Position numbers and translations under genes: made by a program. This document shows positions 15,500 to 63,716 of a stretch of DNA of 64,000 nt, in pieces. The notes below the pieces were generated by a model that did not search any database, was not told the DNA's origin, and saw only the letters and a program-made list of their open reading frames with translations. Source of the DNA: Thuidium tamariscinum (taxonomy: Eukaryota > Streptophyta > Bryopsida > Hypnales > Thuidiaceae); contig OX344753.2 of the NCBI GenBank assembly GCA_947034885.2, positions 20,708,001 through 20,772,000 on the forward strand. Reading direction: 5' to 3'. Position 1 is the first letter of the stretch. Each line of letters begins with the position of its first letter.

Positions 15500-15789
15500 T
15501 TACGGGTGTCTAAGCGTCAATCCATTGTGCCTTCCAAGCAATGGATCTTTTTACTAACCTACCTATCCTAATGTGGGCGTTGTTTCTACTTAAGGCGTGG
15601 TTCCCCTCCTATGTTATGCTTTCCTACTTCTACTTGTGGTGTTTTTCTACACTACCTTATGCATTGTGGATCTGATTAATCTAATCTATGTCCTATATGG
15701 GTCTAATCTACCTCTATGTGTCGTATGGGGTTACTCCTACTTCTACGTATTGTATCCTTTTAGTCTATTCTACTTATGGTATGTGCTTC

Positions 15790-15935
15790 TACATATTTTG
15801 GATTGGATTAATCTACTTTACGTATTTTGGATTGGATTATTCTACTCTACGTATTTTGGATTGGATTAATCTACTCTATGTATTTTGGATCGACTTAATC
15901 TACTCTACGTATTTTGGATTGGATTAATCTATTCT
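15790..15935. repeat. 29-bp tandem repeat
   Basis: About five imperfect copies of a unit like TATTTTGGATTGGATTAATC plus TACTCTACG. The period of 29 is not a multiple of three, so the protein-like translations here simply cycle through frames and are not genes. Confidence 0.75.
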
Positions 15936-16369
15936 ACCTACGGTATTTTCTTACTCTCCTCTATGTATTTGGGATTTGATTAATCTACTCTAACGATTTG
16001 TATTTATCCTAGCTTATGTATTGCATTCCCTTTCACTTGCCCCCTTTAACTCATGATTGTTCCTTGGTTTCATTCCATACTTGCTAATCACGATTAGCTT
16101 GTGGCCCTTGATTCTAATCACTTGCTTGGTCTAACAATTGCATCAAGGAAAGGAGAATGTGAGTTTAAGGTTAGACACCCACCTCTAACGTGTGTGTGAT
16201 GGCTTCCTCTAATTCTGCCGTGCCCCTCACCATGTCTACCATAGCCATCCCTTGGCCCCAATTGGTTCCTGGTCCCGCTTCCTTTAATTATCCCTTTTCG
16301 GGTGGTTTACAAATAGACTTCCTCCTAGACTATTCTCTAACCCCACTATTTCCTAAACTATTTTCTAGA

Positions 16370-16852: not shown

Positions 16853-17110
16853 GCTCCGCCGTCCCTCATGGGGTTGATTTAATCCCGTGAACAAGAGAAG
16901 AAAGAGAAGAGGGGGGACACACAACTCTTTTAATACTAATAATCAAAGCTCCGCCGTCCCCCTATAAATTTTACACCATGAACAAGAGAAGAGGGAGAAG
17001 AGGGTGGACACACAACTCTTTTAATACTACTAATCAAAGCTCCGCCGTCCCCTATGGGACTAGCTTAACCCCGTGAACAAGAGAAGAGGGAAAAGAGGGT
17101 GAACACAAAA
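16853..17110. repeat. Tandem repeat of 91-95 bp, three units
   Basis: Units begin at GCTCCGCCGTCC (16853, 16948 and 17039). Each continues with a GAACAAGAGAAGAGG block and a CACACAACTCTTTTAATACT block. It belongs to the dispersed repeat copy 1; a related 80-bp tandem module is found in copy 2. Confidence 0.8.
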
Positions 17111-25436: not shown

Positions 25437-26060
25437 ACAGTCTGACTTTTGACAAATTACTATTTTTAAATTTTTAAATTTTTTTTCTTGTAGAAGCTAA
25501 AACTAGCTTTCTAAATTGATGCGGAACTTACAAATCGGACTTTCCTAGTAGAAGTTATAGATGAATGAAGTTTTGATTACTAATTAGTGATTGAAACTTC
25601 ATCCGCTTATAACTTCTTCAATTCAACTCAAATTTTTTTTAACTTTATATTGTTGAAAAGCTCTCAACCTCTACTATTAGATTCTTAACTCAAATCTATA
25701 TTATCACCCCCTTTTAATGGTCTGATTTTGCTTTTAGCCTCAGCTCTACCTACACTCTAACTCTCAACTGATTTTTAATAAATTACTATTTTAAAATTTT
25801 GAGTGATTTTTATTTGTAGAAGTTAAGATTATCTTTTTAGATTGATGTGAAACATGCAATTTAGATCTTTTTAGTAGAAATTATACATGGATGAAGTTTT
25901 ATTAGCTAATTGGTGTTTAAAACTTCATCCGCTCATATCTTATTTAATTTAATTTGGATTTATTTGTATATTATGTTTTTGGAAAGCTCTTAACTTCTTT
26001 TATGACATTATGAACTCAAACTTGTACTGACACATCTTCTTAGCATTTTGAATAAACTTT
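25437..26060. repeat. Diverged tandem duplication, ~310 bp units
   Basis: Two adjacent units share TTGTAGAAG, GATGAAGTTTT, AAACTTCATCCGCT and GAAAAGCTCT-like blocks in the same order. A third, weaker unit lies near 24480-24800. Blocks like ATGAAGTTTGATTTGCTAA also recur near 41640. Non-coding. Confidence 0.6.
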
Positions 26061-26575: not shown

Positions 26576-27906
26576 CAAGATAATTTTACTAAAACTCTTT
26601 AACACATGCAAAAGAAGTTAGTAAACTTTGAAGGGACCCCAATGTCCTTCAAAGTTCAAAAATACACACCAAGAAGGAGCTTGAAATGCTCCAAAACACA
26701 TACGTTTGTAACTTTGACTTAAATTTGGCCAAAAAGTCCAAATTATTGAATCAATGTGTATTGTGCCAAAATTTTAGTTACAAAATGGTTTAAGAGGTGA
26801 GTTGAGAGAGAAATGGATGCCCATGTATACTCTTTCAAGGGCACCCACCTCTTCTCAATTTCGGGTGATAAACTTATCATCTAAAATTTTCATCCTAATC
26901 CAACCATTTTTTTACTTTCTACGCTGAACCTATTTATAACTTTTGGAGTTTGACTTCAAATTACAAATGGATTGCGCTATTGACTTCAGAAGGCCATTTT
27001 TAGTTGGGTAGACCCCCTCCCTCTTTTCATCCACTAAAAACTCAACAAAACCCAATGCTAGATTAACAACCAAATAGGGTAAAAATTCAACTTTTGGAGG
27101 TTGAATTTTCTATGAAAAGTAATTAGCCTAGGATTTCAATTAGGTTTGAGGGAGTAAGAAAACACCTAACTTGGGCCTCATTTCGATGTTGTATGCACCT
27201 ATAATGCTAGTCAACTTCTTTGTAATATTTTAAACTTGTCAATCCAGAGATAAATTCTTTAATTCGGATATTTTTCATTATCAAAATATCTTGAAACTTG
27301 TTGAAGATATTTATTAACATAAAACAAGATATCTAATTTTTAGTGGGATTTTATCACAACTTGGATAATTTCTATGAATTTCCTGTTGAAGGTTAAAATT
27401 GTTGACCATTCGGAAAGGCATCTTCTGAATATCAAAAAAATTTGAAATTTTTTTTGGAACCTCCCATGAAATTTCACAAAAGATGTGTAAATCCACATCT
27501 AGATTCTATACAATTGCCAAAGGAGAAATAAATTTTGCTCCATCCTTTAATTATCGGGCTTCGAGGAATCTTCCACAAAAAGAGAAATCTTGACAAAGCG
27601 ACTTTGCTATTGATCTCCTAACATGATTTTAACTCAAGAGCACTGTCCTCTAGCCATAGATTCCCTTCGTAGAGTCATCGTGACAAAATCCATCTCATAG
27701 GCTAAAAATTGGGGTTTTTACTAAATGTAGGAAATAGTTGTAAACATAAAACCTATCCAAGGAACTAGGCTCTAGGACTCTTAAGACCTAATTTTAGTCA
27801 ATCATTGTCACATGCAAGGTAGATGTGGCTATTTTGAAAATTCACACAAAAGATGAGTATTATTGAGGTTTTAATCTTTTTACAATCAGGATTTAGATCT
27901 AAATGG

Positions 27907-28634
27907 GGGTCGTTGCAAGAAACACTTACCGGTTTTGGCTCAAAATGGCTCAAAATCAATGAGTCCTGTGAGTCCTATGACCCTTTGAAATTAAAAAAAT
28001 TGAAATTGAAAGAAATGTTAATAATTTGAAGAGAAATGAGAATATTATGTCTCTTGAAATTCAAACCTAAGTAAATTTTTCTCTAAATGTTATAGACAAT
28101 GGAAAATACAATGAAAATAGCTCTTTTTTCGCTAATTTGGTAAAAATAGTAAAAAATTCAAAAAATGAAAATGAAAAATTCATTTTTTCTCCAAGTAAAG
28201 GTCTTTCTTTTCCAACAAATTTCATCTTAGGAAAAAATTAATTCTATTCTCTACACTTGCGCAAAGTCAGCCACTTTGACGACATGTGGAGGTTGAACAA
28301 TATAGTATTTTCAAAAAACCTCTTCGTGGTCTTGTGTAACTTTAGGTGAGGTCCTTGCATGACAATTTTCAGCTCAAAATTTTCATTTTTGGGTCAAAAA
28401 TAGGACTAAAACCCCCCAAAATGGCCACAGTAGACACCCAATCAGGGATAGTTTAAAAATAGTAAAATAATTTTGAAAAAATTGAAAAAATTACAAAAAA
28501 TGTAAAACTTTTGTAGGCACCTTCATTTCAAGTTTCAAGTCAAATGAACAAAAGATGCAAAAGTTATGAGCAAAAAACAACCTCCTAAAGGTTAAGGGGA
28601 CAAAAAAAAGGACAAGTGTTTCTTGCAATCACCC
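27907..28634. mobile_element. GGGTSATTGCAAG-TIR element, copy A
   Basis: The left end is GGGTCGTTGCAAGAAACACT and the right end is the inverse of GGGTGATTGCAAGAAACACT. The flanks are ATGG on both sides (27903-27906 and 28635-28638), a 4-bp target duplication. It is 728 bp, non-coding, and inverted relative to copies B and C. Confidence 0.85.
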
Positions 28635-28638
28635 ATGG

Positions 28639-29953
28639 ATAAAAACATTAGAAATATGACCAAATACTATATTGGCACGTCACATGCCTATTTTGATTTT
28701 ACACTTTTTTTTGGGCTTTTTGCACTATTTTACACACTATATTTTACCAAAAAAACGAAAAAAAAAATTGTGAGTCTAAAGTGACGAATTTGGAGCTCAC
28801 AGTATGCCGATTTCAAGCAAGTTTGTCAATTTGACGCACTTTTGTTTGTGCTTGTGATACACAACACCCGTTACTATAAAGTAGTGAACCTTTAGAAAGT
28901 AAGCAATCGCCATTTAGTAAAGTTTCGTGGCAAGGGAAATGATTACAAAATTATGAGAATAACGCTTTGAAAATGAAACAAAGCACCACAATTCTCGAAG
29001 AATGCACTTACAGAAACCTCACTTGTCAAGCAATTACAAATCATCATGGCACCTCAAAGTCTGAATAGGTAGGGTTTTAGCGAAACAACGTGCAAAAGAA
29101 GTAGAAGTTTCGTGAGGGGAACCTTATGTTGTGGCTTTGAAGGTGAGTGTTGGAGTTAGGGTTTCGTGGGTGAGGATTTCTCAGCAAATAGGGTTCAATC
29201 AGCAAAGGGAGCACAAGATTTGTAATTGGATCCTCTTATTCTGGCTCAAATGCGTAATTCTGTGGGTTTGGAGTTGATGAAAGGAGCTAAGGTTTCATGC
29301 ACTAGGCCGTTCAGATCTTCCTCAATTCCAATTGCAAGGTTGGATAACTAAGGTAGTATGCTAGAAAAGTGACCATTTAAAATTGGAGGTCAAAATTAAC
29401 TAGTAAGGTAGGGGGTTTCAAATAAGTATTGAAATTTTTGTAATTTTAAAATTGAACACCTCATTTTTGCAATTCCAAGCTTGAATAAGAGTCAATGCAA
29501 TTTTAGCATGGTCTATCACTTAATAAACTTTCACATTTGGAATGTTAGAAAAATATATACTTTAGTGACACCAAATGCAACCCTTGGATAGGACAACAAC
29601 TTCACAAAGTATTTCTAAAAAATAGGATGACTTTCATCCAAGCTATAATGAGAAAGATACGGGAGTTTAATTTGTACATCTTTCATAAATTAGGAATTGG
29701 TGTGCTTTAGGATTAAACTACCCATAACCAACTAGCTCGACATAGCCAATCTATAGATTGATATATTTCCAATTAAGGCTAGAAGGTGTTCTTTTATCTA
29801 TTTCAAAATTGGGACTCAAAGTTCATGACATATGTCCCAAAGCTATGAAGAAGAAGTGAGGAAAAAATTGTGAAACTATTCATAGCTTTTATATTATTGA
29901 CTTTTTTTCATATTTTAAAGTGCACTTAGTGAAAATAGAGCAATAGGAGACAA
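28639..29953. other. Intergenic DNA, no gene; contains a dispersed repeat segment
   Basis: The part from about 29620 to 29890 (GATGACTTTCATCCAAG..., CAAAGTTCATGACATATGT) is recognisably related to 37660-37900. No coding motif was seen. Confidence 0.4.
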
Positions 29954-30488
29954 ACTACACATGTTGGGAGATTTTGTATATCTTTTCTTTGGTAATTCAT
30001 TTGAACTTGAAATTTGTATCACATATTACCAACATAGAGATGACTTCACAAAAAAACATTTATGGTAAGAAACCAATTTTTCAGCCCTTGGAAGGGAGTC
30101 AAAGTTGGCAATTGTGAAAATTTTCTCAAAACTACACATGTTGGGAGATTTCATATATCTTCTTAAAAAACTTCTTTTTAACTTGAAATTTTTTATACAT
30201 ATTAAAAACATAGAGATTGTCTCATGACAAATATTTCATGGCAAAAGAAAATAAACTCAATCCTTAGGAAGGTGTCAAAGTTGAAAGTAGTAAAATGTTT
30301 CTCACCACTACCCATGTTGGTAGATTTTGAATAACTTCTTTTTGGTGAATCTTTTGGCCTTGAAATTTTTCATACATATAATTAACTTAAAGGTGATGCT
30401 GTGGTAAAAATTTTGTGATAAAATACCAATTTTTGAGCTCTCGGTACTTGGTAGCCTTTCAAAGTTGGCAGTACTAAAATTTTTCTCA
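29954..30488. repeat. 176-177 bp tandem monomers, three units
   Basis: The anchor ACTACACATGTTGGGAG or its variants start units at 29954, 30131 and 30307. Each unit carries TTGAACTTGAAATTT, a CATATTA...AACATAGAGAT block and GTCAAAGTTGGCAATTGTG. The last unit ends in TTTGATTGGTACCCCATTGT near 30530. The same monomers occur inverted and direct at 33981-35371. Confidence 0.8.
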
Positions 30489-30530
30489 CTGCGAATTCAA
30501 AAACGACATTTTGATTGGTACCCCATTGTA

Positions 30531-31547
30531 CAAAGTTTTTAAGTGAATGCACAAAAGCACAATACATATTGTACTTAGGAAGAAATGATTATATATCACA
30601 AATATAGATTGATTTGAAAACTATATTTCCTAAAGGCATTATATGTAAATACTTACCTACACGAGTAATCTTGAAAGTTATAATTTTATTAGACAATATA
30701 AAAAATTTCTTGACTTTCATAAAAATCTATTGTAAGACTTTGAAATTGGAAGAATCAATTGGTCAATAAGTTGGTCAATTAAAGAGTTGTAAGTTAGAAA
30801 TAATTCATAATGATAGATTTGAATTTTTCATTTCTTGTTTATAACTACAGTACTACACCCTAGGAAAAGTGAGATAATAAACGATCGAGAAAGCATATAT
30901 TAAAAATTATTTATTTATTTATAAATATGCTTGGAAGGTATAATTATGAAGGGTAAACCACCTCCAAAATCAAATACTATACAATTATGTTTTGTAAAAG
31001 TTACTAAAATTTTTTAGGTGGAAAAAAATGACATGTAAATGTTTTCAAATGAAGGAAGTGAAACTTCTACAAATGGCGGGACAAATGGGATAGTTTTGAG
31101 AAGAATTTATGTAGATTCTTTACAATTTTGAAATTGTCTTGAATAACTTAAAGAAGTGGAGAAGTACAAGTATTTACCGGCTCTAACAAGGGAAAAAAAA
31201 GTTGGAATTTTTTTACCAATATCTATACATTGAGTCATAGATAAGTTCAAGAATGCCAATTGTGCTTTTATTTTATTTTATTCATAAATTATGACAATTC
31301 ATTTCACAAAATATCCTTTAGTGTTCTGTAACAGTGTTTTATGTATCTTAAATCATGCACTAAAAATCTACATTTTGTGTAGTTTTTTTTTAAAGTTAGA
31401 TCTCAAAGAAGATAAGTGTTGCAATAGTCACCTTACAAAATATTGCTAGTTAATTAGAGTTGACCTTCATGTGGCTTGAAAACTATAAAAATGATTTATG
31501 AAAGATATATCATGCATTTATATTATTATACATCACAATAATTTGGT
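30531..31547. other. AT-rich intergenic DNA, no gene seen
   Basis: AT-rich sequence between the monomer array and the next inverted element. Nothing with coding or structural signal was found. Confidence 0.4.
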
Positions 31548-31551
31548 TTTG

Positions 31552-33016
31552 GGGTGATTGCAAGGTCATTGCAAGAAACACCGACTAGGTTTTGTACACT
31601 TTTGCCATTGTAGTCATTTTTTCCCGGGAGTACTTTAAAAATAAAAAAACAATTTTTTTTAAATCTGAAAAATATATTTAGTCTATATTTCCTTCAAAAG
31701 AAGGTACCCTATGAAGGAAAAGTGTAGGAAAATTCTCTAAGTAGGTGAAATAGAAAAGTGCAAAATCTCTTGAAAATAGGCACTTTGACATTTTAATTTG
31801 TAAAAAATAGGAAAATAATTGTTTTGAAAAAATAAAAATTTTACATTTGAGGATAGTTGATGATGAAAAGATTTCACCAAAAAAATGATCTAAGAACCAT
31901 CTTCAATGTTAAAAAACTGTGTGCAAGGGGATTGTTGTTTGTTCTCACGTGGAGGACATAAAATAATAAATTTACAAATTTCCTGTGGTAGATACATTAT
32001 TCTCTAGTATGCAAATAGACCATGAAATTTTGAGCACTAGATCATTAAATTTGGGTACTCCTAATGTAGTAAAAACCCCAAAATTGCTAATTGTGACAAA
32101 TTAGCTAAATTAAAATAAAAATATAATTTTTTTTAAATTCAAAAAATAAGGGATTAGATTAACACCAAGTTAGGCATCTCTAATAAAAACTTCAAAATCT
32201 TGGGATTCATGCTTCAAAAGTTATAGCAAGAAATAACAATGTCACTTCAATTGTGACAAAGAATAGGACCGATGTGTTTTGCAATGACCTTGCACAAAAC
32301 ACTCGTACTATTTTTCGTCACATGTCTCATGCTAATCTGTTTTTTGATCATAACTTTTTCATTTTCGCTCCAAATGACTCAAGATTTCTAAAGAAGGTAC
32401 TCATCACTATCATACACCTTACGTAATTTTTTCATAATTTTCAAAAATAGTTTAATATTAAAATAGTACTAGTGATTGAATGTCACAAATTACAATTTGG
32501 ATGTTTTTAGTACTAAGAAGTACCTTTTTTTTTTAATGATTTTAAGATGAAATTTGGATGAGATTGTCATCTAGTAGAATTCTAGCTCTCTAATGAAAGA
32601 TTTTTTAAAATAGTTAATTTTATGTGGTGTGAAAGTCTACAAAGTGAGCTTCTTTCTGCTTGTATTTTGAAATATGTAAAATATTATTTTGGTGGTTTCT
32701 TTCGTAAATGACCATCTCCATAAAGTTCTTGTAAATTCAAACTCTTATTTTTTTATTTACTTATTTTTATTATTTTTTCCTAATTAAAACATGAAGATAT
32801 GTATTTCCTTGAAGTTTGGCACTTTTCAAGTTCTCCTACTTAGAGAATTTTTCTATACAATTCCTTCTATGGGTACCTTCATCTTAAGGTGTATACATAA
32901 GTCATAGTTTTTTAAAAAATTAAAAATTAATTTTTTAATTTAATAGTACTCCAGAAAAAGTCAGGAGTATTGTTGCAAAACGCAACAAATAGTATAGGTG
33001 TTTTGTGCAATCATCT
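31552..33016. mobile_element. GGGTSATTGCAAG-TIR element, head-to-head double form (copy D)
   Basis: The left end is GGGTGATTGCAAG and the right end the inverse of AGATGATTGCACAAAACACC; the flanks are TTTG on both sides (31548-31551 and 33017-33020). A second pair of inner ends meets at about 32285 (TTTTGCAATGACC / TTGCACAAAACACT). The outer few hundred bases of the two halves are inverted copies of each other: GAAGGTACCCTATGAAGGAA near 31694 matches the inverse near 32865. It therefore looks like two family members joined head to head and moved as one 1465-bp unit. Confidence 0.65.
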
Positions 33017-33980
33017 TTTGAAGCAAATAAGAATTGAATATTTTGCATTTTGATGGACTTTAATATTCATTTTGAATATTTTGAATTTAAAGTCTTTGAA
33101 TTTTATAAATGAAATTTTCAATAAGAGCCTTTCATTGTTCATACAACAATGCCACTTTATTCATCTATTGCAATCTCATTAGTAATTCTTTGTCATCTTG
33201 TAGACATTATTAATTCAGTTTTTGTTTATAATTCATAAATACTTCTATCTAACAAACTTCTAAAAAATAAATAATAGATTTTTGTAGATTATTTTATTTT
33301 TTAGAATCCCAACCAAGTTTCCTTCTATAAAGATTTGAAACTCATAATTGAATGGTGGAATATTTTAAAATAAAGAAGGTGTAAAGTCCAAAAGCATAGT
33401 CTTAGTAATTGTTTTCTTCACTTTAAATTCAAGAATCTTGTAATTTGAATTGTCAAAATTTTGGATATTCATTCCATCCATTGTCATGCAAATTAAGTGT
33501 AAGATCTAGTAATGAAGATGTTCATAAATAATAATTTTCAATTCAATTTCATTAAACTATTTGAAATAGAAATGGCAATTTTGAATGTTTTCAACAAAAT
33601 AAAATCCTTGGTTCTTTAAGTGGTCAGGTGTTTTTCTATCAAATTCTAAAATTTGTTTTCCCACCTTGTAAATGTAGAGTCCTCGGGTGGGTCACTTCCT
33701 GCATTTTAAAAACTATGTGCAGTATAATATAGTATAGATTTTATTGTTTCAAAGTAAAATTTATAAAGGATTTACAAATAAAGTAGGGGACTTTCAAAGT
33801 TAAAAATGCATTATAAGTAAAATAGGTAGCTAAAAATTCTCAAGTATTAAAAAAATTTATATATAATTTAAGGACTAGAGATTAGGATCTTGAAAATTGT
33901 ATTTAGTAGGATTAGTTTTATTTAGAGTTGAAGTTAGAGTATAAAGGTGGTACATGATGTTTGCATAGCTGGTTTTACAA

Positions 33981-35371
33981 TGGGGTACCAATCAAAATGT
34001 CGTTTTTGAATTTGCAGTGAGAAAAATTTCAGTATTGCCAACTTTGAAAGCCTCCCGAGAGTTCAAAAATTGGTATTTTACTATGAAATTTTTACTACAA
34101 CATCACCTTTAAGTTAATTATATGTATGCCAAATTTCAAGGCCAAAAAATTCACCAAAAAAATTTATTCAAAATCTACCAACATGGGTAGTGGTGAGAAA
34201 TATTTTACTACTTTCAACTTTGACACCTTCCTAAGGATTGAGCTTATTTTCTTTTTCCATGAAATTTTTGTCATGAAACAATCTCTATATTTTTAATATG
34301 TACAAAAAATTTCAAGGTAAAATAAATTTTTTTTAAGAAAATATTTGAAATCTCCCAACAGGTGTAGTTTTGAGAAAATTTTCACAATTGCCAACTTTGA
34401 CACCCTTCCAAGGGCTGAAAAATTGGTTTCTTACCATGAATTTTTTTTTGTGAAGTTATGTTTATTTTGATAATATGTTCTCCAAATTTCAAATTCAAAT
34501 GAATTACCAAAAAAAGGATATACAAAATCTCCCAACATGTGTAGTTGTGAGGAGGAGTTTTTGAGCCCTTAGTTATAGTGTTATTTTGTGGAGCAAAGTT
34601 TGACACAAATGTAAAAACTCAATCTCACAACTACACATGTTGAGAGATTTTGAATATCTTTTTTTGGGTAAGTGTTTTGAACTTGAAATTTGGAACATAT
34701 ATTATCAACATAAATTTGATCTTATTCAAAAACTTTCATGTTAAATAGACAAATTTTAAGCCCTTGGGAGGGTGTCAAAGTTGGCAATAGTGAAAATTTT
34801 CTCACAACTACACATGTTGGGAGATTTTGTATACCTTTTTTTTGGTAATTCATTTGAACTTGAAATTTGGAGAACATATTACCAAAATAAACATAACTTC
34901 ACAAAAAAAATTCATGGTAAGAAACCAATTTTTTAGCCCTTGGAAGGGAGTCAAAGTTGGCAATTGTGAAAATTTTCTCAAAACTACACCTGTTGGGAGA
35001 TTTCAAATATCTTCTTAAAAAAATTTTATTTTACCTTGAAATTTTTTATACATATTAAAAATATAGAGATTGTTTCATGACAAAAATTTCATGGAAAAAG
35101 AAAAAAAACTCAATCCTTAGGAAGGTGTCAAAGTTGAAAGTAGTAAGATGTTTCTTACCACTATCCATGTTGGTAGATTTTGAATAAATTTTTTTCGGTG
35201 AATCTTTTAGCCTTGAAATTTTTCATACATATAATTAACTTAAAGATGATGTTGTGGTAAAAATTTCATAGTAAAATACCAATTTTTGAGCTCTCGAGAA
35301 GCTTTCAAAGTTAGCAATACTGAAATTTTTCTCACTGCAAATTCAAAAACGATATTTTGATTGGTACCCCA
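33981..35371. repeat. Large foldback: inverted arrays of 177-bp monomers
   Basis: The ends are TGGGGTACCAATCAAAATGT and its inverse. The left arm has three monomers in reverse (anchors at 34545, 34368 and 34191). The right arm has four forward (34630, 34807, 34983 and 35160). Spacing is 176-177 bp throughout. The spacer between the arms is only about 80 bp, so a transcript could fold into a ~600-bp imperfect hairpin. It is closely related to the array at 29954-30488. Confidence 0.85.
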
Positions 35372-35385
35372 CTATACAAAGTTAT

Positions 35386-35489
35386 TAGAGTATAAAGGTG
35401 ATACATGATGTTTGCATAGCTGGTTGTACAAAGTAGTTAGAGTATAAAGGTGTTACACAATGTTTGCATAGCTAGTTGTTGTGTTATAT
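35386..35489. repeat. 52-bp direct repeat flanking the foldback
   Basis: TAGAGTATAAAGGTG...TTTGCATAGCTGGTTGTACAA occurs at 35386 and 35438. A further unit at 33935 lies just left of the foldback, so the foldback seems inserted into a small 52-bp array. Confidence 0.7.
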
Positions 35490-36260
35490 TGAGTAATAGA
35501 CCTTGGATGGATGAAAATATGGGTGATAGAGATGTAGTTGAAGTTGTGTGAATGGACTTTGAGCTTCAAGTTAGGGTTACGTGAACTTACCATTGCGATT
35601 TGTGTCTCGTTTTTCAAAGCATTACAAATTCTATAAACCATGATTCTATTGTTTTCCTTTCATGCATTGTCAAACTATGTTTTTCATATACTATAGAAGT
35701 TCTTGTACATTCAATTTTTGGATTTTTGTGTATTGCAAGTGGTAAAATTGTCATACTAGTTCACTTGACTAAATTCTATATACAAAAAGGGTGTGACAAC
35801 AGAAAAGAATATTGAGCAAAGTAAACATCTCAACTTTTTATGCAAATTTCTTTTATCTTCTCTCTAATCTTCTTGTTTTTAGCTTTCTCTTCAATTCACT
35901 TTTTCTCCTTATAAAAAAAATACCCTACAAAAAAATACTTTCATCTACGTAATATAAGTAAATATAGGATGCCATAATATAGGACATTTTTACAAATTAT
36001 GTAATTATAGGGGACCATTTATTTGAGCCTTCGAGGTAAATAGCCCCCCAAAAAATACCCCCTTGCCGCACGTGGGGGGGGGGGGTATGAAACATACAAA
36101 GAGTGACCCACCCGAGGTGGAGTTTTAGTATTGAGGTTTAAATTATGAGGATAGAAAGTTTTATAATGAAGTTTGAGAAGTTGCCATAAAAAATTCTTTA
36201 AGTCATTTGGAGTGCTTATGTATTGTAGAATTAAATGTTAGGATTTATAAGATTTCTTCT

Positions 36261-36476
36261 CACTAGTAGAAGCCCCCGTTTAGTGTGACAAGGCCTAAAT
36301 TTTCTTGACAGATTTTGCTAGGCATCAAAAGTAACAACCCGTGTTTTTATATCAGCATTGATGTTGTGTTGAACGTTTTTGTTGACATAAAAACACAGGT
36401 TGTTACTTTTGATGCCTAGCAAAATCCGTCAAGAAAAATTAGGCTTTGTCACACTAAACAAGGGTTTCTACTAGTG
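36261..36476. mobile_element. CACTA-type hairpin MITE
   Basis: It is almost fully palindromic over 216 bp, starting CACTAGTAGAAGCCCC and ending in the inverse of CACTAGTAGAAACCC. CACTA ends are typical of CACTA elements. The 3-bp flanks are TCT and TTT, one mismatch. Confidence 0.75.
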
Positions 36477-40183: not shown

Positions 40184-40417
40184 TACTACAAGAGAAAGGG
40201 GTGTTTTAAATATAGTCTAAGAGCTAAGATTTTAAGTAATGACCTTTTTAAAAGATTTTTATTATGAATTTACTAGAAATACGTGTCTTTCTTGTAAAAT
40301 TTTACTAGAAAGACAAGTATTTTTAATAAATTCTTACTAAAAATCTCCTAAAAAGGTTATTACTTAAAATCTTAACTCTAGGACTATATACTTAAAACAC
40401 CCCTTTCTCTTGTAGTG
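40184..40417. mobile_element. CACTACAAGAG hairpin MITE, older copy
   Basis: Left end TACTACAAGAGAAAGGGGTG, right end the inverse of CACTACAAGAGAAAGGGG. The interior is a decayed palindrome with AGATTTTAAGTAATG blocks. CACTACAAGAAA-like ends are classic En/Spm (CACTA) termini. No clean 3-bp duplication remains. Confidence 0.75.
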
Positions 40418-43128: not shown

Positions 43129-43331
43129 CACTACAAGAGAAAGGGGTGTTTTAAGTAGTGTCCTAGACATCACGTCTTTTAAGTAATGTCTTTTAAGTAA
43201 GGTTTTAAGTAAAATTTTACTAAAAAGACAGTCTTTTTAGTAAAATTTTACTTAAAATCTTACTTAAAAGACATTACTTAAAAGACGTGATGTCTAGGAC
43301 ACTACTTAAAACACCCCTTTCTCTTGTAGTG
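43129..43331. mobile_element. CACTACAAGAG hairpin MITE, well-preserved copy
   Basis: A nearly perfect 203-bp palindrome with ends CACTACAAGAGAAAGGGGTG and its inverse. It is flanked by TTC on both sides (43126-43128 and 43332-43334), the 3-bp duplication expected for CACTA elements. The arms contain repeated TTTTAAGTAA blocks. The intact pairing suggests recent insertion. Confidence 0.9.
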
Positions 43332-44850: not shown

Positions 44851-45579
44851 GGGTGATTGCAAGAAACACTTGTCCTATTTTTTGTCCCCTTGACCTCTAA
44901 CATGTAGTTTTTTGCTCATAACTTTTTCATTGTTTGCCCTATAAACTTGAAATTTGGAATGAAGGTTCACACAAAAGTTTTATATGTTGTGTAATTTTTT
45001 CAATTTTTTTCAATTTTTTTTTACTATTTTTAAATTGCCCCCGATTGGCTGTCTACCTTGGCCATTTGGGGGGGTTTTAGTCCTATTTTTGACCCAAAAA
45101 TGCAAATTTTGAGCTGAAAATTGGCATGCAAGGACCTCACCAACAGTTACACAAGACTATGAAGAGATTTTTTGAAAATACTATACTGTCCAACCTCCAC
45201 ATGTCGTCAAAGTGGCTGACTTTGTGTAAGTGTAGAGAATATAATTTATTTTTTTCAAAGATGAAATTTGTTGGAAAAGAAAGAGCTTTACTTGAAGAAA
45301 AAATAGATTTTTCATTTTCATTTTTTGAATTTTTTTACTATTTTTACCAAATTAGTGAAAAAAGAGCTATTTTCATTGTATTTTCCATTATCTATAACAT
45401 TTAGAGAAAAAATTTCTTAGGTCTGAATTTCAAGAGACATAATATTTTCATTGCTCTTCAAATTATACATATTTTTTTCAATTTAAAAAAAATAAATTCA
45501 AAGGGTCATAGGACTCACAGGACTCACAAATTTTGAGCCATTTTGAGCCAAAACCGGTAAGTGTTTCTTGCAACGACCC
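44851..45579. mobile_element. GGGTSATTGCAAG-TIR element, copy B
   Basis: Left end GGGTGATTGCAAGAAACACT, right end the inverse of GGGTCGTTGCAAGAAACACT. TGAA flanks both sides (44847-44850 and 45580-45583). It is 729 bp, highly similar to copies A and C, and inserted in the hAT-like transposase remnant. Confidence 0.9.
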
Positions 45580-57624: not shown

Positions 57625-58329
57625 TCACTTGAGATCAAAACCTGGCGTCGGAGGCGCGGGATTTGCATCGAAGCTATCCAACTTCTCGCTTCGAACCGGC
57701 TCCGGCTTCTCATTCTTGCGGCCAAACCAACCACCGAAGAAAGACGGTGTCTCGGGCTCCGAAACTGGGGGATACGACTGCGAATACGTCGAAGAAGAAG
57801 AAGAAGCAGACGAAGGTTCACCCGTCTCCGGATACACTCCACCCGGGAAACCAAGCCCTGCTGAAGCTCCAGCCATCGGAGGCATTTCCTCCATGGGCGG
57901 GGGCTGCTGTAAACTGGCCAACGTTCTATTCAACATGATCCCCGCGCCTTCAATTAACCCTAACAGCACGCCTCCGAAGATGGCCGACCTCGCGGCAGAC
58001 CTCGCCCCCGCCCGCAGTTGCAGAAACCCTCCGGTGGCCGCACCAGCGGCGATCGAGTTCCACGGATCCTCCTTCTGCCGCAAGTACACCATCGAGCAAT
58101 CGAACGTACTGAACAGACCCCCCCACACAGCGAAACTACCTCCGAGACGAGGTGCATTCAAGCGCACGGCCTGCGTCCCGCCAATCAACCGCTCGCCTTT
58201 CGGAGAATTCTTCATGCCTTTGATGAAATGCCAAGCTGAGCCGCCCACGGCGCCCATGCTGAACGCGCCCCCGATGTCGTCCAGGATGCGGTCCGGACAC
58301 GGCTCCCTCGCGTGATCGGGAGTCGACAT
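57625..58329 (-). CDS. TIM17: Mitochondrial inner-membrane translocase subunit TIM17
   Basis: The start is the ATG at 58329, giving MSTPDHAREPCPDRILDDIG and 234 residues; the open frame extends seven codons upstream but only across an intron boundary. The Tim17 family core is complete: REPCPDRILDDIGGAFSMGA, WHFIKGMKNSPKG, APRLGGSFAVWGGLFSTFDC, MVYLRQKEDPWNSIAAGAAT, and RSAIFGGVLLGLIEGAGIML. Four membrane segments with GxxxG-like packing lie in about residues 14-140. A low-complexity P/S/G-rich tail (~residues 150-234) is longer than in fungi but usual for plant TIM17-2-type proteins. TIM17 is a core subunit of the TIM23 complex, which passes presequence proteins into the mitochondrial matrix. 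The CDS is uninterrupted, with a single coding exon and a 5'-UTR intron. It is the best-preserved gene in the second island. Confidence 0.95.
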   Translation of the reverse strand: MSTPDHAREPCPDRILDDIGGAFSMGAVGGSAWHFIKGMKNSPKGERLIGGTQAVRLNAPRLGGSFAVWGGLFSTFDCSMVYLRQKEDPWNSIAAGAATGGFLQLRAGARSAARSAIFGGVLLGLIEGAGIMLNRTLASLQQPPPMEEMPPMAGASAGLGFPGGVYPETGEPSSASSSSSTYSQSYPPVSEPETPSFFGGWFGRKNEKPEPVRSEKLDSFDANPAPPTPGFDLK

Positions 58330-58344
58330 CTCGGGCGTCTCAAC

Positions 58345-58420
58345 CTGCAAACGAATCCTCTGGTTTGCGAATTCTTTTCTGCCACCGCAAGCACAAGGAG
58401 TATGCTCGAAGTTTTCTTAC
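58345..58420 (-). other. 5'-UTR intron of TIM17
   Basis: On the minus strand a GTAAGA donor follows AAAATT (58420) and the intron ends in TTTGCAG (58345), 16 bases before the ATG. It is 76 bp, near the lower size limit for plant introns. Inferred from splice motifs only. Confidence 0.5.
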
Positions 58421-60421: not shown

Positions 60422-61299
60422 ATTTTTGTAAGAATGAAAATTTTGTTTTTTTGAATTCATTTTTTCCCCTAGATTCTCAACTCAATTTTCCACCATAGAG
60501 ATTTAAAGTTCAAAGCTCTATAGTGCAAAAAATTTAACTTAACCCTTAGATGTTAAAGGCCTTCTTAGAGCTTCTAGGAATTTGCTCTAAAGTGAACAAA
60601 AAATCAACTTTATAATGAGTCATATGAATTTTATTGAAATGAAACCATACAAATTCAAACTAAACATGTAAGAGATCATTTAGACAAAAAAAACATGACA
60701 ATATCACTTATGGATTGAAAGATTATAATGCTTGATCATGAAGGTGTTAAAATTGCAAAAGTGATGTGAAGTCTTTCAATCCTCTTTTCGCAAGTCAAAT
60801 CTAAAAAATTGGTGACCAAAAAAATATGAGGTGAAAGGGTTTAACATATATAACCCCAATTGATTTATGGCTTCTCAAAACCTACCGTACAATTTTGTTA
60901 ATTGAATTTGCAATGTGATTTTTCTCCAAGATCTAGTGTATTTGAGGCTCGTTTCCAAGAGCCCTCAACACTAGAGAAAGTCAAGATTGCAATTAGTACC
61001 ATTGCACAAAATCTTGAATAGAAAAATCATAGCCAAAGATTTTTTAGATTGGATTTTTAAAGCTTAAAGTAGACTTCAAAAAGAATTCTCTAAAAATATA
61101 AACTACTATAAATAGCAACTTAATTAGGTTTTATTTGCCCTCAAAGTTTTGCAAACACCAGATTTTGGTGCTTTTGGCATTTAGGTATTAAGAAGGTTCA
61201 AAGTCAAATAACCTAGTCCTGCAATAAATAAAAATTTAAAAAACTTTCTTCACTTTCAACATAGATATCTTGTGGTTTAAAATTTTTAATTTATTCCAC
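60422..61299. other. AT-rich intergenic DNA, no gene seen
   Basis: No motif-bearing frame, element terminus or repeat was recognised. Confidence 0.4.
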
Positions 61300-62016
61300 G
61301 GGTGATTGCAAGAAACACTTGTCCTTTTTTTGTCCCCTTGACCTTTAGTAGATAGTTTTTTGCTCATAACTTTTGCATATTTTGTTTCTTTGACTAGAAA
61401 CTTGAAATGAAGTTGCCTACAAAAGTTTTACATTTTTTGTAATTTTTATAATTTTTTAAAAATTAGTTTACTATTTTTTAATTGCCCCCAATTGGGTGTC
61501 TACTTTGGCCATTTTGGGGGGTTTAGTCCTATTTTTGACCCAAAAATGAAAATTTTGAGCTGAAAGTTGGCATGCAAAGACCTCACCTAAAGTTACACAA
61601 GACCACGAAGAGATTTTTTGAAAATACTATACTATTCAACCTCCACATGTCGTCAAAGTGGCTGACTTTGCGTAAGTGTAGAGAATAGAATTTATTTTTT
61701 CCAAAGATGAAATTTGTTGGAAAAGAAAAGACCTTTACTTGGAGAAAAAATGGATTTTTCATTTTGAATTAAAATTTATTTTTACTATTTTTACCAAATT
61801 AGTGAAAACAGAGCTATTTTCATTGTATTTTCCATTCTCTATAACATTTAGAGAAAAAATTTCTTAGGTTTAAATTTCAAGAGACATAATATTCTCATTC
61901 CTCTTCATATTTTTTCAATTTAAAAACGAATTATTCCAAAAGTCATAGGACTCATAGGACTCACTGATTTTGAGCCATTTTGAGCCAAAACCGGTAAGTG
62001 TTTCTTGCAATGGCCC
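61300..62016. mobile_element. GGGTSATTGCAAG-TIR element, copy C
   Basis: Left end GGGTGATTGCAAGAAACACT, right end the inverse of GGGCCATTGCAAGAAACACT. CCAC flanks both sides (61296-61299 and 62017-62020). It is 717 bp and collinear with copy B, including a TTGACCCAAAAATG-like central block and ACATGTCGTCAAAGTGGCTG. Confidence 0.9.
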
Positions 62017-62020
62017 CCAC

Positions 62021-63485: not shown

Positions 63486-63716
63486 CACTAGAAGAAAACC
63501 CTGTTAGAATCTCTGAAAACACGTCATGTAGTTTATGTTGAATTCATGTTTCAAAACACAGTCAAAATGCAGTGAAAACACAAGAAAAAAATGCAAAAAA
63601 ATGCTTTTTCTGCGTTTTTCTGCATTTTTCTGCGTTTTGACTGCGTTTTGCAACAGCAACTCAACATGAAACACATGACATGTTTTCAGGGATTCTAACA
63701 GGGTTTTCTTCTAGTG
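63486..63716. mobile_element. CACTAGAAGAAAA hairpin MITE (CACTA type)
   Basis: Ends CACTAGAAGAAAACCCTGTT and its exact inverse. ATC flanks both sides (63483-63485 and 63717-63719). It is 231 bp, with an inner run of TGCGTTTTTC-like motifs on one arm. The 3-bp duplication and CACTA ends fit the CACTA superfamily. Confidence 0.85.

Follow-up and report, generated by a model that had tools for sequence, protein, structure and literature searches.

The inverted repeat at positions 33981-35371 of the window (the whole 64-kb stretch of DNA analyzed) is probably a DNA transposon of the foldback type, non-autonomous and with terminal repeats that consist of tandemly arrayed 176-177-bp monomers. We assign this reading a probability of about 75%. 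Evidence for a transposon comes from the paired arms, the order of the monomers within them, a terminus common to two loci and a position within an array of 52-bp units with TACAA on either side. Counting against it, the two target copies are imperfect (6/8) and the second locus is one-armed, with no duplication seen there. The original prediction, which had described a discrete foldback of satellite-like monomers and a long hairpin transcript, is partly supported. Discreteness has gained support and, given the shared short target and the one-armed second copy, the feature further looks like a transposon insertion. Both the one-armed copy at 29952-30525 and the interrupted 52-bp tandem array had been overlooked.

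The features are listed below in order of position, with the evidence for each in brackets.

29952-30525, + strand: second locus, a single arm of three monomers that likewise has the GGTACCCCA terminus, opposite arm absent (blastn, three-way alignment)
30526-30537, + strand: TTGTACAAAGTT, flanking the second locus on its right (letters identical to those of the foldback's inferred site)
33924-33975, + strand: 52-bp host tandem unit 1, left flank (79% to the unit at 35375 over 52 bp; core identity 40/41 bases)
33973-33980, + strand: left copy of the putative target-site duplication, TTTTACAA (6/8 bases as in the right copy, TACAA exact)
33981-34551, - strand: left arm, 571 bp, TGGGGTACC terminus and reversed monomers L4, L3 and L2 (94.7% arm match, 176-177 spacing)
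34552-34622, + strand: middle segment, 71 bp, perhaps the decayed 3' part of a forward monomer ("R0") (shuffle comparison with the monomers)
34623-34799, + strand: monomer R1, an extra right-side monomer without a left partner
34800-35371, + strand: right arm, R2 (from 34800), R3 (from 34976), R4 (from 35153) and the GGTACCCCA terminus
35372-35379, + strand: right copy of the putative target-site duplication, CTATACAA (flank comparison)
35375-35478, + strand: 52-bp host tandem units 2 and 3 (Tandem Repeats Finder, period 52, 88% matches)

Architecture of the foldback

The 1,391-bp inverted repeat has exact ends, TGGGGTACC at 33981 and GGTACCCCA at 35371, just as the original prediction had placed them, and its count of three reversed and four forward monomers is borne out by the measured spacings. 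Forward monomers start at 34623, 34800, 34976 and 35153 (177, 176 and 177 bp start to start), and the three reversed copies, 176 and 177 bp apart by the same measure, lie within 34018-34551. The spacer between the two arrays, put at about 80 bp, measures 71 bp. Tandem Repeats Finder reported a period of 176 for part of the forward array (34623-35003). In a blastn comparison of the arms, 33973-34551 matches the complement of 34801-35379 at 94.7% over 580 bp (900 bits, eight flanking bases at the outer end being included), while the best non-self score in 20 mononucleotide shuffles of 33600-35800 was 35.6 bits.

The middle segment was compared with the four monomers in two orientations (eight comparisons), and its best match, to R2 in the forward direction, was equalled by 1 of 300 shuffles; the match to R1, in nearly the same register, was reached by 66 of 300. 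From these comparisons the segment may, weakly, be read as the decayed remnant of a further forward monomer.

The terminus is specific in the window. A search for the 17-base TGGGGTACCAATCAAAA with up to three mismatches returned three matches, all of them exact, two at the ends of the foldback and one at that of the second locus. When up to two mismatches were allowed, the shorter pattern GTACAATGGGG matched 16 times against 11.8 expected and is uninformative on further copies. Derivation of the terminus from a diverged partial monomer was rejected, as the in-register matches that follow TCTCAC do not surpass those of shuffles for 7 of 7 monomers compared (p 0.10-0.46). Across R1 to R4, 88 of 176 columns are invariant and these are clustered (equal clustering in 45 of 5,000 shuffles); we do not press their interpretation as binding sites, since runs of A and T may contribute.

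As is characteristic of the foldback class, long inverted repeats with tandem direct repeats fill most of the element and there is little or no coding capacity, with a single ORF of at least 75 codons (34385-34618) that has no match in Pfam. No transposase was found among the 36 ORFs tested against Pfam (105 ORFs were listed in the window). Among these 36, a Tim17 match alone reached the curated cut-off, and two matches below it (E 0.012 and 0.025) were taken as chance. The Tim17/Tim22/Tim23-family ORF has 263 codons (57625-58416, - strand; E 1.7e-33) and carries the domain within one ORF.

Putative insertion site and candidate superfamilies

The 52-bp unit occurs once to the left of the foldback and twice to the right, and the array is interrupted at a unit boundary. 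The junction of units 2 and 3 (35419-35441) was used as a stand-in for the empty site. It reads GCTGGTTGTACAAAGT, the left flank ends in GCTGGTTTTACAA and the right flank starts with CTATACAAAGTT; against the junction, 12 of 13 left-flank bases up to and including TACAA agree, as does the right flank from TACAAAGT onward. TACAA is thus present on both sides of the foldback, yet only once in the unit junction, as transposition would leave it. When duplication lengths of 2-11 bp were tried at the symmetric TGGGG terminus, 8 bp gave the best agreement (6/8) and 9 bp gave 4/9, and under the 8-bp reading the inferred ancestral target would be the palindrome TTGTACAA. Two random 8-mers from the window agree as well (6/8) in 0.76% of draws, a figure to be read with the several registers tried in mind. 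TACAA is exact at 5/5 only if the termini are unequal by three bases, and a TA duplication of the Tc1/mariner type matches at 2/2 if the termini are CAATGGGG and TAGTGGGG. By our own count, the 8-bp reading needs three changes and the TA reading also three. Insertion of a whole foldback is visible only at this site.

On these comparisons a duplication of 8 bp is favored and would fit the hAT superfamily, with Mutator and TA readings standing beside it. In the hAT consensus, an 8-bp target duplication of the form nTnnnnAn accompanies YARNG-like ends. TTGTACAA fits nTnnnnAn and the end TGGGG agrees with YARNG at 4/5 positions (by hand), the target copies agreeing at only 6/8. CACTA elements have CACTA ends and a 3-bp duplication, and Helitrons have a 5' TC and a 3' CTRR without long inverted repeats. 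Both were rejected, as the ends here are TGGGGTACC with 3-bp agreement at 2/3, and inspection reveals long inverted repeats and ends other than those of a Helitron. For Mutator, with its duplication of about 9 bp, the flanks agree at 4/9 over 9 bp and at 6/8 over 8 bp; extracts of the report on the Drosophila virilis foldback transposon Tetris ascribe duplications of 8-10 bp to Mutator (PMC4079207), and 8 bp is therefore compatible with this superfamily as well.

The one-armed relative, the order of events and competing explanations

When the window was searched with the element by blastn, 29953-30541 matched 34806-35387 of the right arm at 91.0% over 590 bp, a match that spans R2 through the terminus and a few flanking bases. 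No opposite arm lies within the window, and no target duplication was seen at this locus. Its right flank shares its first 12 bases with the 52-bp unit. When 115 bases of this flank were aligned locally to the unit, 10 of 500 shuffles did as well as the best alignment; with the first 14 bases removed, 492 of the 500 did, and no similarity was seen beyond these bases. Insertion of the second locus into the same 52-bp repeat was rejected, since the likeness stops after the first 12-14 bases. The simplest account of TTGTACAAAGTT beside both copies, as yet unproven, would be a target-site preference, and alternatively the terminus could be longer than drawn or the shared letters could be what is left of that 52-bp repeat.

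Between the two arms, monomers that occupy corresponding positions are 93.5-96.6% alike; for either arm against the second locus the figure is 89.6-93.0%, while for monomers in non-corresponding positions it is 62.4-81.8%. In the three-way alignment 507 columns are invariant and 19 gapped, and those unique to one sequence number 31 (second locus), 14 (left arm) and 12 (right arm). Because position-matched monomers are closer to each other than monomers of different positions, the array diverged before the inversion of the block and its copying to the second locus. We infer that three already diverged monomers and the terminus were copied in inverted orientation beside a longer forward array, which would have left three monomers facing four. 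A transposase encoded elsewhere would then have recognized the TGGGGTACC ends, possibly together with the repeated monomers; the element would have been cut out and inserted at a palindromic site like TTGTACAA, and this insertion would have made an 8-bp duplication that has since mutated. With the order of monomers preserved and the second copy truncated, the sequence of array, inversion and transposition becomes readable from the DNA.

Alternatively, the locus could be a piece of a dispersed satellite in which a palindromic duplication produced the inversion in situ, without any transposition. Satellite units are usually of lengths that include this size range, and the 176-177-bp unit falls within it; the second locus can be seen as a simple array of three monomers that lacks one end, and the middle segment may, again weakly, be a partial monomer. 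The likeness to a plant satellite or nucleosome repeat in the original prediction held for unit length alone, as there is no large array in the window, where the longest run of monomers is four, and nucleosome phasing was rejected on an AA/TT autocorrelation of about zero at lag 10 (0.004). An inversion in place is hard to reconcile with an exact terminus beyond the last monomer that is common to two loci, or with the place of the foldback, which lies between units of an unrelated 52-bp array and is flanked on either side by TACAA, and we consider it unlikely. That the arms are an artefact of assembly, or that the second locus is a collapsed foldback, is more improbable still. Long inverted repeats are hard to assemble, and the inner edge of the one-armed second locus falls about 6 bp or less from the position of the left-arm inner edge (by eye, from the alignment). 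Against this, differences between the arms occur at 26 of the 564 three-way columns without gaps and are spread over their length, and the two sides have unequal numbers of monomers, so one arm is not a mere duplicate of the other.

A further explanation, compatible with a transposon origin, is that the locus has been retained as a functional source of hairpin RNA, in which a promoter would read through both arms and the small RNAs made by Dicer-like enzymes would silence related sequences, the second locus among them. The folding of the 1,391-nt strand is in keeping with it: the predicted minimum free energy is -887.9 kcal/mol against a mean of -277.9 (sd 8.5) for 16 dinucleotide shuffles, 556 of 637 predicted pairs lie on the arm diagonal, and there are 11 uninterrupted helices of at least 21 bp, the longest of 87 bp. 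A flank control of equal length (31500-32890) gave a fold z of -6.6, perhaps due to another inverted repeat there, and the second locus, with its one arm, has a fold no stronger than that of its own shuffles (z 0.1). If transcribed, the foldback would give an RNA that pairs along almost all of its length and could serve as a Dicer substrate, and on predicted folding the foldback is an excellent potential hairpin. The long-hairpin transcript of the original prediction thus stands on thermodynamic grounds. That prediction had also staked itself on good pairing energy and on a monomer found elsewhere, and both hold, the pairing being strong and the monomer recurring at the second locus.

Mutation patterns bear on the same question. 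Of the 26 arm-specific changes, 16 are C>T or G>A, compared with 30 of 94 changes in a control repeat family (Fisher p 0.011), a share that resembles what methylated DNA would show. However, the excess relative to reverse transitions is not significant (16:5 against 30:14, p 0.57), and by context the changes number 14 in CHH, 2 in CHG and 0 in CG, where the right arm has 146, 7 and 6 cytosines, respectively, so that a CG excess is absent. Methylation-type mutation is therefore suggestive against one control and not against the other. Pairing, for its part, would arise in any foldback and does not in itself indicate selection. Retention as a hairpin-RNA source appears rather improbable.

Known elements and other repeats of the window

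By analogy, the foldback works most like Tetris, as far as extracts of PMC4079207 describe it. The terminal inverted repeats (TIRs) of Tetris contain tandem repeats of about 220 bp, which number three or four in the two alleles described, and the extracts report no conserved ORF and no transposase. Its three complete copies have duplications of 8-9 bp, with fragments and rearranged copies elsewhere; its repeats gave rise to satellite arrays, and the authors suggest the Mutator superfamily (PMC4079207). Long TIRs of satellite-length tandem repeats, little coding and fragment copies are thus common to both. In Tetris, however, a non-repeated domain of up to 866 bp forms the outer part of the TIRs, whereas the array here starts about 45 bp or less from the terminus, and the host of Tetris presumably belongs to another kingdom. 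The likeness is one of structural description. Galileo, a Drosophila element of the P superfamily with long TIRs, offers a second parallel in the extracted text of PMC3573991: subfamily F has internal tandem repeats of about 210 bp whose number differs between the two TIRs of one copy, and such repeats contain secondary transposase-binding sites. Long TIRs with tandem repeats in unequal numbers at the two ends are shared, but Galileo differs in its known P-type transposase, its 7-bp targets and TIRs that are only partly repetitive.

The nearest plant case among the papers covered is that of Mutator-like elements with tandem TIRs, where the authors think that duplication may aid recognition by the transposase (PMC3310237). 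Those elements have whole TIRs duplicated around an internal region, whereas the monomers here make up nearly all of the element, and the flank agreement over 9 bp is the 4/9 given above. Tandem arrays derived from MITEs, such as Xstir of Xenopus, also tie tandem units to inverted-repeat elements (PMC12628747, in extract); host and sequence are different, and the likeness is by description only. Among the matches listed in literature searches of titles and abstract openings, no plant element of satellite-length monomers is built in this way, which is weak evidence as few subscription papers were covered, and no title on TTGTACAA with hAT or target site duplication concerned such an element family. 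Of four sequence strings looked for in papers, one turned up in a single listed paper, which concerns the Drosophila visual system. Viral contigs contained neither an exact 22-base monomer pattern nor an exact 28-base terminus, and bacterial and archaeal genomes gave 0 matches to the monomer pattern. One match in a plasmid collection (5% of the query, E 9e-3) was taken as chance, Rfam gave 0 matches at the gathering threshold, and ARAGORN (bacterial code) gave 0 tRNAs.

A bolder and doubtful proposal is that a plant transposon family with satellite-length arrays as its ends is the source or carrier of a large 177-bp satellite in this genome, centromeric or heterochromatic, with the monomers as repeated transposase-binding sites. 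If true, a mobile element would spread ready-made satellite seeds. A plant example would let this idea of satellite seeding, reported for Tetris in flies, be tested in another kingdom.

The window also holds other repeats. An element of about 730 bp occurs in three copies that are 87-90% identical (27904-28643, + strand; 44851-45579 and 61290-62019, - strand), with inverted ends GGGnnnTTGCAAGAAACACTT and 4-bp target duplications ATGG, TTCA and GTGG (by eye); a duplication of this length is unusual among plant DNA transposons. Four palindromic CACTA-type miniature elements of 203-232 bp (36261-36476, 40185-40416, 43129-43331 and 63486-63716) have a self-complementarity of 81-98.5%; those at 40185 and 43129 are related, and clean 3-bp duplications are seen at 43129 (TTC) and 63486 (ATC). 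Together with the Tim17-family ORF, these miniature elements point to a plant as the probable host. Between the second locus and the foldback sits a pair of inverted repeats of about 280 bp (31562-31841 and 32739-33017), 70% identical and about 900 bp apart, perhaps an older long-TIR element. Direct repeats of about 254 bp, 76% identical, are located at 25442-25694 and 25768-26020, and tandem arrays of 91-bp and 29-bp units at 16888-17107 and 15788-15992, respectively.
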